DNA from: Caulobacter radicis
GTDB taxonomy: Bacteria > Pseudomonadota > Alphaproteobacteria > Caulobacterales > Caulobacteraceae
Direction of reading: 5' to 3'
Assembly: GCF_003094615.1 (NCBI RefSeq)
Contig: NZ_QDKO01000024.1
Span: 62,001-126,000 of the forward strand
Length of the DNA: 64,000 nt
Shown here: positions 46,766 to 63,567 of the stretch, in pieces
Numbering within the stretch: the first letter of the stretch is position 1
How the letters are laid out: each line of letters opens with the position of its first letter
Made by a program: the position numbers and the translations under genes
The notes under the pieces: model-generated
Seen by the model: the letters and a program-made list of their open reading frames with translations, nothing else
Databases searched by the model: none
What the model was told of the DNA's origin: nothing

Positions 46766-46884
46766 CCTCCCCCTCTGGGGGAGGCGATCGCCTTGCGATC
46801 GGTGGGGGGAGGGACGATCAGCGCCTCGGCGGCTGAAAACGTCCCCCCTCCGGCCCCCTGGGCCACCTCCCCCAGAGGGGGAGG
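46766..46884. repeat. Family-E palindromic repeat
   Basis: Hairpins cctccccctctgggggagg (46766-46784) and cctcccccagagggggagg (46866-46884) enclose 81 bp including a gggggga/tcccccc region. It fills the space between pyk and the convergent Crp-type gene. The same family lies inside the helicase gene at 60812-60966. Confidence 0.85.
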
Positions 46885-58281: not shown

Positions 58282-58989
58282 TCAGTCCGGCCGCAGCGAC
58301 TTCGGCCCCACCGCGTGCACCCGCTTGCCGCCAAGCGCGCCGGCCAGGGGCGGGGCGGAAAACAGGCCCGCGAACGCCGCGTCGAGGATGTTCAGGCCGC
58401 CGGTATAGGCCCCGAAGGCCGGCAGGATCAGCCGCTGGCCGTCGGTGACGAAGCAGCGCTTGCGCACGCTGCCGCGACCGCTGGAGACCCGCGCCGCCGG
58501 GTGCAGGTGGCCGGCCACCTCGCCGGGCTGGATCCCGGGCTCGGGCTCGTGGCGCAGGATCAGGCCGCCGATGGGCATCTCGTCGATCACCTGGCCGGGC
58601 AGGGCGCGCGGGCCGTCGGCGTCGTGGTTGCCCACCGCCCAGATCAGGTCGCGGCCGACCGACAGGGCCCGAAGACGCTCGGCGTCGTCGGCGGCCAGGC
58701 GATCCTCGCCCGCGCCGTCGTGAAAGCTGTCGCCCAGGAAGATCAGCGTCGCCGGCGCCACGGCCGCGACCTCGGCCTCCAGGCGGGTCAGGGTTTCGCG
58801 GGTGTCGTAGGGCGGCAGCATCTGGCCAAAGCGCGCGGCGTAGGACGAGCCCTTCTCGAAGTGCAGGTCGGCCACCACCAGGGCGCGCTCGGCCTCCAGC
58901 CACAGGGCGCCCGAGCCGCGCAGCAGCACCGTTCGCCGGGCCACCAGCACCGCCAGGCCGCCGCAATCGCTGGACTGGAACCTGGTCAT
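58282..58989 (-). CDS. pdeM: Ligase-associated DNA-damage-response endonuclease PdeM
   Basis: 235 residues of the calcineurin-like metallophosphoesterase fold. The metal ligands are visible: LVVADLHFEKGSSYA, FLGDSFHDG, VGNHDADG and VAGHLHPAA. It occurs with an Lhr-like helicase in the DNA-ligase-associated repair set. Its ATG overlaps the helicase stop (TGATG), so the two are translated together. The usual ligase and beta-lactamase-fold exonuclease partners are not adjacent. Confidence 0.92.
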   Translation of the reverse strand: MTRFQSSDCGGLAVLVARRTVLLRGSGALWLEAERALVVADLHFEKGSSYAARFGQMLPPYDTRETLTRLEAEVAAVAPATLIFLGDSFHDGAGEDRLAADDAERLRALSVGRDLIWAVGNHDADGPRALPGQVIDEMPIGGLILRHEPEPGIQPGEVAGHLHPAARVSSGRGSVRKRCFVTDGQRLILPAFGAYTGGLNILDAAFAGLFSAPPLAGALGGKRVHAVGPKSLRPD

Positions 58990-61583
58990 CAGGAAAGGGC
59001 CTCCGCGATCAGGTCTTCCTCCGCCTCGGCCAGGATCATGTCGCTGGCCGCGTCGCCCGGCGCGCGTTCGCGGCCGATCTCCAGCATGATCGGCACGGCG
59101 AAGGGCGAAACCTTGTCCAGCGCCGCATGGCGAATCCGCCCCTTGATGCGGGCCAGCAGGTCGCCCAGCCGCGCCACGTCCAACTGGCCGGTCGCCGCGT
59201 CGGCGCGGGCGCAGCGCAGCAAGAGGTGGTCGGGCTGGTGCTTGCGCAGCACGTCATAGATCAGGTCGGTGGAGAACGTCACCTGCCGGCCCGACTTCTC
59301 CTCGCCGGGATAGCGCCGCTCGATCAGCCCGCCGACCAGCGCGCAGGCCTTGAAGGCGCGCTTCATCAGGAAGCTCTCGTTCAGCCAGTCCTCGAGATCG
59401 TCGCCCAGCATGTCCTGGTCGAACAGGTCATCCAGGTCGAGTTCATCCATCGGCTTCAGCGACCAGATGTTCAGCGCGTAGTCGTTGCAGACGAAGCCCA
59501 GCGGCCCCACGCCCAGGCGGTCGAGCCGCCGGGTCAGCAGCATGGCCAGGGTGGTGTGGGCCAGGCGGCCCTCGAACGGATACATGACCATGTGGAACCG
59601 CTTCCCGCGCGGGAAGGTCTCCAGCAGCATCTCGTCCTCGTCGGGGATGATCGAGCGGGCCTTCTGGTAGGCCATCCATTCCTGCACGTCGGGCGGCAGG
59701 GCGGTCCATTCGGCCTCGTCGTGCATCATCTTGCGCACGCGGCTGGCGAGATAGGTCGAGAGCGGGAACTTCGAGCCGCCCCAGCTGGGCATCTTCGGGT
59801 CCTTGGCCGGGGCGGGCGAGACGTAGGCGTCGGCTCCCACCAGGCTGTTGAATCGCCAGACCTGTCCTGCGAAGACGAAGGTGTCGCCGGGCGTCAGCTG
59901 CTCGAAATAGCCTTCCTCGGCCTCGCCGATCTTGCGACCTCCCATGGGGCGCCGGCCGCCGCCGATACGGACGTTGACCACCGCCGGCGAGACGATGGCG
60001 CCGACGTTCATCCGGTGGCGCTGGACGACTTGCGCGTTGCGGGCCTTCCAGAAGCCGTCGGCGTTTTCCACGATCCGGCGGAAGCGGTCGTAGGTCTTCA
60101 GGGCGTAGCCGCCGGTCGAGACGAAATCGACGACGGTCTCGAAGTCTTCCCACGACAGGTCGGCATAGGGGCCGGCGGTGCGGATCTCGTCATAGAGGTC
60201 GACCAGCTTGAAGGGCTCTGAGCAGGCGCAGCCCATCACGTGCTGGGCCAGCACGTCGAGGGCGCCGACCCGGGCCGGCTCGCCGTCGAGGTGGTTCTCC
60301 AGGATGGCGTCGGCGGCGGCGCGGCACTCCAGCATCTCGAACCGGCTGGCCGGCACGAAGAGGGCGCGGCTGGGCTCGTCCAGGCGATGGTTGGCGCGGC
60401 CGATCCGCTGGACCATCCGGGAGGCCCCCTTGGGCGCGGCCAGCTGGATGACCAGATCGACGTCGCCCCAGTCGATGCCCATGTCCAGCGTCGAGGTGCA
60501 GACCACGGCCCGCAGGTCGCCGCGCGCCATCGCCGCCTCGACCTTGCGCCGCTGCTCGGCCGACAGGCTGCCGTGGTGCAGGGCGATCGGCAGGTCCTCG
60601 TCGTTGAGCTTCCACAGCTCCTGGAACGCGAACTCGGCCTGGAAGCGCGTGTTGACGAACACCAGCGCCGTACGGGACTGACGAATGATCTCGTAGACCT
60701 CGGCCATGGCGTGCTGGGCGGTGTGGCCGGCCCACGGTACGCGGCCGCCGGAGACGAGGACTTCCACCACCGGCTGGGCGCCGCCGGAACCGAGGACGAG
60801 GTCGACGGAGGAAACCTCCCCCAGAGGGGGAGGATCCTTGGTTTTCAGATCCTCCCCCCAAAGGGGGAGGTGGCCCGGAGGGCCGGAGGGGGAAGGGGCT
60901 GTTGAGGTGGGATCACTTCCCCCTCCGTCGGCTTCGCCGCCACCTCCCCCTTCGGGGGGAGGATTTCTACCCAGCCACCGCCGCACCAGGTCCGGATCGT
61001 CCACCGTCGCCGACAGTCCCACCCGGCGCATCCGCGGCGCGAAGGTTTGGAGCCGCGCGATATCCAGCGCCAGCAGGTCGCCGCGCTTGGAGGGCCACAT
61101 CGCATGCGCCTCGTCGATGATCACGCACGACAGGTCGGCGAAGTATTCCCGCGCGCCTTCCCAGGCGCAGAACAGGGCCAGCTGCTCGGGCGTGGTCAGC
61201 AGGATGTCGGGCGGGCGGATCCGCTGGCGGGCCTTGCGGCTCTCGCCGGTGTCGCCGGTGCGGCTTTCGGCGACGATCGACAGGCCCATCTCGCGGATGG
61301 GCGTCATCAGGTTGCGCTCGACGTCGACGGCCAGGGCCTTGAGCGGCGAGATGTAGAGGGTGTGGATCCCGGCGGGCGTGTTTCGCGGCGGGCGCTCGTA
61401 GAGCTCGATCAGGCTGGGCAGGAAGCCCGCCAGGGTCTTGCCGCCGCCGGTCGGGGCGATCAGCAGGGCGTCGCGGCCGGCCTTGGCCTTCTGGATCATG
61501 GCCAGCTGGTGGGCGCGCGGAGACCAGCCGCGGGCGGCGAACCACTCGGAAAAGCGCGGGGGAAGCAGGTCGGCCGGAACCAT
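58989..61583 (-). CDS. Ligase-associated DEXH-box DNA helicase (Lhr-like) with in-frame repeat insertion
   Basis: 864 residues. Walker A PTGGGKT at 44-50, DEAH-box IIDEAH at 155-160, motif III SATV at 191-194, then the second RecA domain (VFVNTRFQAEF, CTSTLDMGIDWGDVDLV, QRIGRANHR) and a long C-terminal domain typical of Lhr proteins (YEDF-type FETVVDFVSTGGYAL; NVRIGGGRRPMGGRKIG). It unwinds DNA or RNA:DNA in repair. Between RRWLG (residues 201-205) and SVDLVLGSGGAQPVVE (from 259) lie about 54 Pro/Gly/Ser-rich residues encoded by palindromic repeat DNA, absent from the normal family pattern. Frame and downstream motifs are intact, so the protein is probably still made. Confidence 0.93.
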   Translation of the reverse strand: MVPADLLPPRFSEWFAARGWSPRAHQLAMIQKAKAGRDALLIAPTGGGKTLAGFLPSLIELYERPPRNTPAGIHTLYISPLKALAVDVERNLMTPIREMGLSIVAESRTGDTGESRKARQRIRPPDILLTTPEQLALFCAWEGAREYFADLSCVIIDEAHAMWPSKRGDLLALDIARLQTFAPRMRRVGLSATVDDPDLVRRWLGRNPPPEGGGGGEADGGGSDPTSTAPSPSGPPGHLPLWGEDLKTKDPPPLGEVSSVDLVLGSGGAQPVVEVLVSGGRVPWAGHTAQHAMAEVYEIIRQSRTALVFVNTRFQAEFAFQELWKLNDEDLPIALHHGSLSAEQRRKVEAAMARGDLRAVVCTSTLDMGIDWGDVDLVIQLAAPKGASRMVQRIGRANHRLDEPSRALFVPASRFEMLECRAAADAILENHLDGEPARVGALDVLAQHVMGCACSEPFKLVDLYDEIRTAGPYADLSWEDFETVVDFVSTGGYALKTYDRFRRIVENADGFWKARNAQVVQRHRMNVGAIVSPAVVNVRIGGGRRPMGGRKIGEAEEGYFEQLTPGDTFVFAGQVWRFNSLVGADAYVSPAPAKDPKMPSWGGSKFPLSTYLASRVRKMMHDEAEWTALPPDVQEWMAYQKARSIIPDEDEMLLETFPRGKRFHMVMYPFEGRLAHTTLAMLLTRRLDRLGVGPLGFVCNDYALNIWSLKPMDELDLDDLFDQDMLGDDLEDWLNESFLMKRAFKACALVGGLIERRYPGEEKSGRQVTFSTDLIYDVLRKHQPDHLLLRCARADAATGQLDVARLGDLLARIKGRIRHAALDKVSPFAVPIMLEIGRERAPGDAASDMILAEAEEDLIAEALS
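60812..60966. repeat. Family-E palindromic repeats inserted inside the helicase gene
   Basis: Three hairpin modules, cctcccccagagggggagg (60815), cctccccccaaagggggagg (60851) and cacctcccccttcgggggga (60942) with flanking ccggaggg sequence, share sequence with the intergenic repeat at 46766-46884. All lie within the helicase reading frame. Confidence 0.85.
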
Positions 61584-63393: not shown

Positions 63394-63410
63394 GCTCTAA
63401 AACCCGAACA

Positions 63411-63496
63411 ATCCCCGCGAAAGCGGGGACCCAGGCTTTTTCTGAAACGCGTGGCGCTCAACGATAAAACACCTGGGTCCCCGCTTTCGCGGGGAT
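63411..63496. repeat. Family-D palindromic repeat
   Basis: Inverted arms at 63411-63435 and 63472-63496 (ccccgcgaaagcggggaccc and its complement, plus AGG) enclose 36 bp. Shares the GACCCAGG core with family C. It lies after the peptidase stop and may act as terminator. Confidence 0.85.
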
Positions 63497-63567
63497 TTTA
63501 CGGGGGAGAGCGCACGGGCGCCGAGTTCCCCGTTCGTTTCCCCGCGCCAAAGTGTTAATCCACGCTC

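Follow-up and report, generated by a model that had tools for sequence, protein, structure and literature searches.

A REPIN-like palindromic element in frame in a helicase loop of Caulobacter, probably replaced in place

How does a repeat that is otherwise kept between genes come to be translated within a conserved enzyme? The question is raised by Caulobacter radicis, in which three palindromic hairpins are read through in the gene for a ligase-associated helicase. This article describes the insert, follows the same loop across the genus and beyond, and argues that the loop is probably a permissive place in which a REPIN-like element is filtered only for reading frame and replaced in place.

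Palindromic repeats within and between genes

In the REPIN/RAYT system, two inverted REP-like hairpins are combined with a variable spacer, and the elements are dispersed mainly between genes. Related repeats were surveyed by Di Nocera et al. (2013, PMC3733652), and the sections of that survey drawn on here describe REPs as lying mostly between convergent or co-directional genes, but also as palindromic dimers in frame within ORFs, many of them in replication and repair genes, with different REPs at approximately the same recB site in two Xanthomonas species. The same sections define a CGTC superfamily by a CGTC-like tag, with CCTC variants allowed, and a stem starting with A-T pairs (PMC3733652); its members come mostly from alphaproteobacteria and apparently lack a dedicated transposase, and how palindromes of this sort spread is left open by the survey, the main text of which makes no mention of Caulobacter. 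Rickettsia palindromic elements (RPEs), as outlined in the parts of PMC2229807 and PMC10969869 used here, are palindromes of 100-150 bp that are read in frame within conserved enzymes, and one tested RPE-bearing protein remains active with its insert. From Caulobacter itself come the CIR elements (Chen and Shapiro 2003, cited here from part of PMC2229807), abundant intergenic repeats of ~110 bp with GANTC sites; they are said to be absent from genes and to be closed by stops in each of the six frames.

The helicase gene and its in-frame insert

The window analysed here, a stretch of 64,000 nucleotides from one contig of C. radicis, carries on its reverse strand (58989..61583) an open frame of 864 aa for a ligase-associated, Lhr-like DEXH helicase. 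By profile search the protein belongs to TIGR04121, with 1074 bits against a cut-off of 850, and the match consists of two profile stretches, the better of which begins at residue 260. A gene for a PdeM-type nuclease (TIGR04123, by profile search) adjoins it on the same strand (58282..58989). The closest named helicase loci are those of Caulobacter, e.g. C. zeae, C. endophyticus and C. hibisci, and structures of relatives, as judged by sequence, include 5v9x and 7lhl. Comparison with orthologues in which the site is empty delimits an in-frame insert at 60807..60965 (reverse strand), corresponding to residues 207-259. The initial annotation had placed three hairpins at 60812-60966, encoding some 54 additional residues in a tolerated loop between motif III and the second RecA domain, and this description has held up: CCTCCCC-GGGGAGG hairpins lie at 60815-60833, 60851-60870 and 60943-60962, the frame stays open across them and about 53 residues are extra. 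In an AlphaFold model made with 37 sequences (mean pLDDT 76), residues 211-257, between a helix (197-204) and a strand (260-264), fall below a pLDDT of 50, as do two shorter stretches (598-608 and 762-769), and the insert is modelled as occupying a disordered linker loop between RecA1 and RecA2.

The second and third hairpins are the outer ends of a single inverted-repeat dimer, the 26-nt arms of which (60849-60874 and 60939-60964) are 96% complementary. Recognized by this arm pairing, the REPIN-like dimer (60849..60964, reverse strand) consists of two half-elements face to face, with a central spacer at 60895..60915, and belongs to a subfamily that is labelled A here. The first hairpin (60815..60833, reverse strand), which a spacer at 60834..60848 separates from the A dimer, probably stems from an element of a second subfamily, C, either as its relic or by fusion with it; relatives with a whole C element have the C end in common with the helicase insert. 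Because the two subfamilies are frequently fused in the source genome, the insert may have arrived as a unit, or A may have arrived beside a C relic. The transcript of the insert has a predicted fold of -113.7 kcal/mol (z = -6.1), with none of 200 shuffles as low, and an Rfam scan at the gathering threshold found no family at the site.

The helicase also has a second site of insertion, at residue ~547, where four genus genomes (L074, L090, L091 and L092) have similar inserts of ~25-28 residues that are not of the CCTCCCC type; in several of the order's genomes, too, helicase matches break in two near residue 545. Another inverted pair, ccccgcgaaagcgggg ... ccccgctttcgcgggg, is found at 63410-63497 of the window, directly downstream of an aminopeptidase-like gene.

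The repeat family and its avoidance of genes

The pattern CCTCCCCN{2,8}GGGGAGG has 483 occurrences in the source genome and its reversed control none, and it is present in 59 of 61 genomes of the genus, the reversed pattern appearing 0 to 2 times per genome. Comparison of the 155-bp genic stretch with the genome (40 of 295 candidates scored) yielded 113 matches with E values up to 1, among which many represent the two strands of a single palindrome. Within the window alone there is a weak excess, CCTCCCCC being found 12 times against 6.8 expected, a number that 2 of 100 shuffles reach. An intergenic element of the same family by sequence comparison, with one C-like and one A-like half, lies at 46766..46884 between pyk and a Crp-like gene, the latter resembling NtcA/Crp only weakly (19 bits, well under the cut-off). 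That the intergenic and the genic copies make up one repeat family, as was first proposed, is borne out by the genome match search and by the pattern count.

Do such repeats generally enter genes? A survey of 1.72 Mb, or 31% of the source genome, grouped 169 hairpins into 104 clusters, of which 102 were scored for coding frame. An open coding frame contains only two of the 102, whereas the same test places 492 of 1000 random stretches of 120 bp in a gene, an approximately 25-fold depletion from genes in the sampled part; 33 lie between convergent coding frames and one between divergent frames, while six are flanked on either side by one and the same frame, interrupted by a stop (60 of 1000 random stretches). 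The two in-gene clusters are that of the helicase and one at a gene junction. Regions selected around the helicase in four relatives gave 27 scored clusters, and the 4 that fall within a gene are the helicase cluster of each relative. The initial annotation had likened the repeat to the palindromes that colonise genes in Rickettsia; what stands of this is the in-frame copy within a conserved enzyme, whereas general colonisation is not supported by the survey of the sampled 31%, and this helicase loop is the exception to gene avoidance.

At the junction cluster (L295, G000:C9 ~614074-616401, G000 being the source genome), a family B element is present where two genes share a stop-free frame of 776 codons, as if a stop had been lost. 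The first of them is presumably puuD-like and the one into which it runs an aminotransferase gene.

Occupancy of the loop in the genus and beyond

The helicase was found in 59 of the 61 genus genomes, and its loop is readable across in 55, the other four being masked or at a contig end. Judged by eye, 30 of these loops have several hairpins, 8 have one, 16 are short and one (L056) is long and G/P-rich with no palindrome. A strict automatic test of 54 readable loops assigned at least two perfect 7-bp hairpins to 24, one to 6 and none to 24, the last class including imperfect elements. Across the 31 genus loops of at least 50 aa there are 59 perfect hairpins, against 8.3 in codon shuffles. Occupied genomes carry a median of 22.4 hairpins per Mb, compared with 12.4 in short-loop genomes (p = 0.0016) and 7.5 in single-hairpin genomes, and within the inner clade (26 occupied vs 6 short-loop genomes) the difference in load has p = 0.019, both p values being uncorrected for kinship. 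In two draft genomes (L059 in G004 and L094 in G050) a contig breaks off within the element of the helicase, and draft assemblies may therefore divide such genes.

In a sample of the order, the helicase is present in 105 of 120 genomes. Outside the genus, 18 of 22 loci can be read, with at least two hairpins in 12, one in 2 and none in 4; since the ranking put the best loci first and thereby favours occupied ones, the 14 of 18 with a hairpin are not a rate. The occupied loci represent three more genera of the same family together with three genera in two further families. A further 14 named loci, including Phenylobacterium, divide into 7 with at least two hairpins, 3 with one and 4 with none. 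At the level of whole genomes, 3 to 91 CTCCCC hairpins are present in 18 genomes outside the genus against 0 to 3 in the control; one short-loop genome among those outside the genus has no excess (3 and 3). Among 34 distant loci, mostly of Rhizobiales, 26 are readable, and these include no loop of 50 aa or more and a single hairpin in one. In other species and genera the loop is occupied by different families of palindrome. The initial reading of the residues as an insertion is supported, in that 16 of 55 genus loops are short with no palindrome and 26 of 26 readable distant loops are under 50 aa; other genera of the order carry other palindromes there. One metagenome-assembled genome of Caulobacterales (L170) has an insert at the same site that reads PLTPANAGAQ...LGPGVRRDE, which we take to resemble a CGTC-type repeat.

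Selection on the insert and its flanks

The comparison of divergence covered 19 short pairs, not independent of one another, over fixed helicase flanks; in 12 of them both members carry the same family of element. The flanks are under purifying selection, with dN/dS of 0.052-0.126 in 18 of the 19 pairs and 0.223 in the other. In the 12 same-family pairs, the insert has a dN/dS of 0.48-1.70 and a dN above that of the flanks in all 12, and the peptide thus bears no sign of selection beyond the frame. At silent sites the insert is less diverged than the flanks in 10 of the 12; the deficit is clear in six A pairs and one C pair (0.09-0.17 vs 0.26-0.44 in the flanks) and is missing from two B pairs (0.252 vs 0.249 and 0.547 vs 0.220). 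Hence the A palindrome seems to be conserved or homogenised as DNA and that of family B does not. In 11 aligned A elements, changes on both sides affect 11 of 45 predicted pairs, in part from loops shifting in the alignment.

Turnover at the site

Occupancy and family were placed on a quick tree of 71 helicases from which the insert had been removed, with family labels assigned by eye; the tree leaves out 30 loci regarded as duplicating genus genomes, a further 8 that were cut, masked, partial or broken, and 30 of the 34 distant loci. Presence or absence requires at least 11 changes on this tree (shuffle mean 20.7) and the family labels 29 (shuffle mean 41.9), with none of 1000 shuffles as low in either case. 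For the A, B and C labels alone (30 rows), the tree signal is absent, with 14 changes against a shuffle mean of 13.6 and 728 of 1000 shuffles no higher. Sister pairs differ in state in 9 of 22 cases, one of them on a poorly supported fork.

The closest comparisons come from a few genomes. In G020 and its sister G043, the 140-bp windows on both sides of the insert are 94-99% identical, yet the elements belong to families B and C, respectively. Over 109 bp the B element of G020 matches that of G007 at 92% identity, the flanks of G007 being 89-95% identical, so the B element is common to these two by descent or transfer, and the exchange left the flanks behind. The helicase element of G044 matches that of G020 at 81%, and the only other place that aligns across the B spacer, in six genomes with 40 candidates scored in each, is one in G035 (71%). 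For the B element of G019, the best full-length copy in its own genome is 77% identical and the copies of relatives are 75-77% identical; the element being equally far from both, a donor in its own genome is not indicated. Loss may be seen in G040 (L072, ~880-1000), where one hairpin is left between flanks that G001 (L046) has intact, with a break in the frame that is possibly an assembly error.

Orientation within A and within B appears by eye to be constant at the helicase site, and spacers recur between lineages, an A spacer being common to L036-L039, L046 and L047. From this it follows that many labels were inherited or transferred and do not represent independent insertions. Inspection by eye revealed neither a target-site duplication nor a shared target motif, and no fresh insertion or transposase was seen at the site. 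A comparison with phages gave 6 records with distant partial matches. As to intergenic DNA, several of the same intergenic sites hold different palindrome families in sister species (G000 C24, 28216-146508, compared with G005, G055, G019 and G021).

How the loop may have come to be occupied

What process would leave such a pattern? The explanation that we consider probable is that a REPIN-like element resides in a permissive loop, where reading frame is the only filter and one element is substituted for another in place. The loop would tolerate a wide span of lengths and peptides, so that selection would bear mainly on the reading frame, and the peptide would be a by-product of a DNA element. 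A resident palindrome would be exchanged for another through events confined to the element, whether by insertion into or beside the resident followed by its loss, or by recombination between hairpins. Occasional loss could occur by collapse between the two end-hairpins, which, being palindromes, are also direct repeats. Against repeated insertion stand the orientation within A and within B, apparently constant at this site, and the recurrence of spacers; the six clusters flanked by a single frame with an intervening stop also weigh against the explanation.

A more far-reaching version of this explanation is possible and is offered tentatively. It holds that the loop is a standing exchange site, at which palindrome is swapped for palindrome without the flanks by a hairpin-directed process that also acts at intergenic sites, the gene serving as an in-frame reporter.

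It is rather unlikely that the pattern reflects a few old insertions that were inherited and then exchanged between species as alleles, through homologous recombination of the helicase gene, with little or no repeated insertion. The constant orientation within A and within B, as read by eye, would fit such a history, and so would the A spacer common to six loci and the B element of G020 and G007, which recurs less closely in G044 and elsewhere, among the places scored, only in G035. Allelic exchange of the gene is, however, at odds with G020, G043 and G007, in which the element's affinities are not shared by the windows up to 140 bp from the insert, and separate arrivals would be needed in any case for the different palindrome families in different genera.

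Less likely again is that the DNA of the loop is a particularly favoured target of palindromic elements, and not just permissive of them. The helicase is the sole gene hit in its interior within the sampled regions, the site is occupied in several genera, and 32 of 34 genus loops, which are not independent of one another, agree in the codon phase of their first CCTCCCC; against this, loci elsewhere vary in phase (6 of 8 named loci and 7 of 11 order loci), and neither motif nor duplication was seen by eye.

Retention of the insert for a function, either as a disordered linker useful to the helicase or as an RNA hairpin that tunes expression, is improbable. Its presence across several genera, the strong RNA fold, the reduced silent divergence in 10 of 12 same-family pairs, clear for A, and the paired changes in the A alignment with its shifted loops are all in keeping with a function. 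But any palindrome is missing from 16 of 55 readable genus orthologues, unrelated families substitute for each other, the same palindromes exist in hundreds of copies between genes, the insert dN/dS is 0.48-1.70, and both pairs in which insert dS is not below flank dS are of family B.

That the insert is merely an ordinary low-complexity Pro/Gly loop with chance hairpins, or part of a pseudogene, is scarcely credible, for despite the G/P-rich loop with no palindrome in L056 and the broken orthologue L072, both versions are rejected, the former by the hairpin excess over codon shuffles (59 vs 8.3) and the fold (z = -6.1), and the latter by a flank dN/dS of ~0.06 between this gene and its near relatives.

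Relation to known systems

Returning to the REPIN-like element in a permissive loop, the likeness to REPINs consists in two facing palindromic half-elements with a variable spacer, as in the helicase, and in a high copy number that is mostly intergenic (483 hairpins; 2 of 102 scored clusters in open frame). With regard to a RAYT, a search for Y1_Tnp genes gave 0 candidates in G000, 10 of 41 genomes have one, and there is no CCTCCCC hairpin within ~1.5 kb of the Y1_Tnp genes of relatives at the 6 loci inspected among 13 matches listed; a Y1 transposase flanked by the repeat was rejected on these grounds. Unpaired GTAG beside the stems, as in the GTAG REP superfamily, was not noticed in copies read by eye. 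The family does not fit the CGTC superfamily, as its stems begin with G-C pairs, though the tag by itself could pass.

Judged by their partial descriptions, RPEs share with the helicase element an in-frame copy inside a conserved protein gene, but they occur in many genes (PMC2229807, PMC10969869), whereas the clusters described here are depleted from them in the sampled 31% of the genome. CIR elements are set apart, again by description, since the helicase element is read through in frame. In the portions of the REP survey used here, other replication and repair genes have REPs at different sites (PMC3733652), whereas in Caulobacter a single loop accommodates several families, in the genus and beyond it. 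Since in-frame palindromes are known from Rickettsia and REPs are known from repair genes (PMC3733652), the kind of phenomenon is already familiar. A search of titles and abstracts found nothing on palindromes in this helicase, nor on one loop with several families across genera, on element-confined exchange or on selection mainly for frame. What appears to be new here is recurrent exchange at one site, by several families and across genera, with selection mainly on frame.

Significance

The helicase offers a single conserved, frame-filtered site of which short, single-hairpin, occupied, swapped and broken versions exist in dozens of species, so that gain, loss and replacement become countable, and the loop is in this sense a defined site, in a harmless genus used in the laboratory, at which to assay the movement of palindromes. 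If the loop is indeed an exchange site, it would be a natural in-frame reporter of how REP-type elements with no known transposase move.
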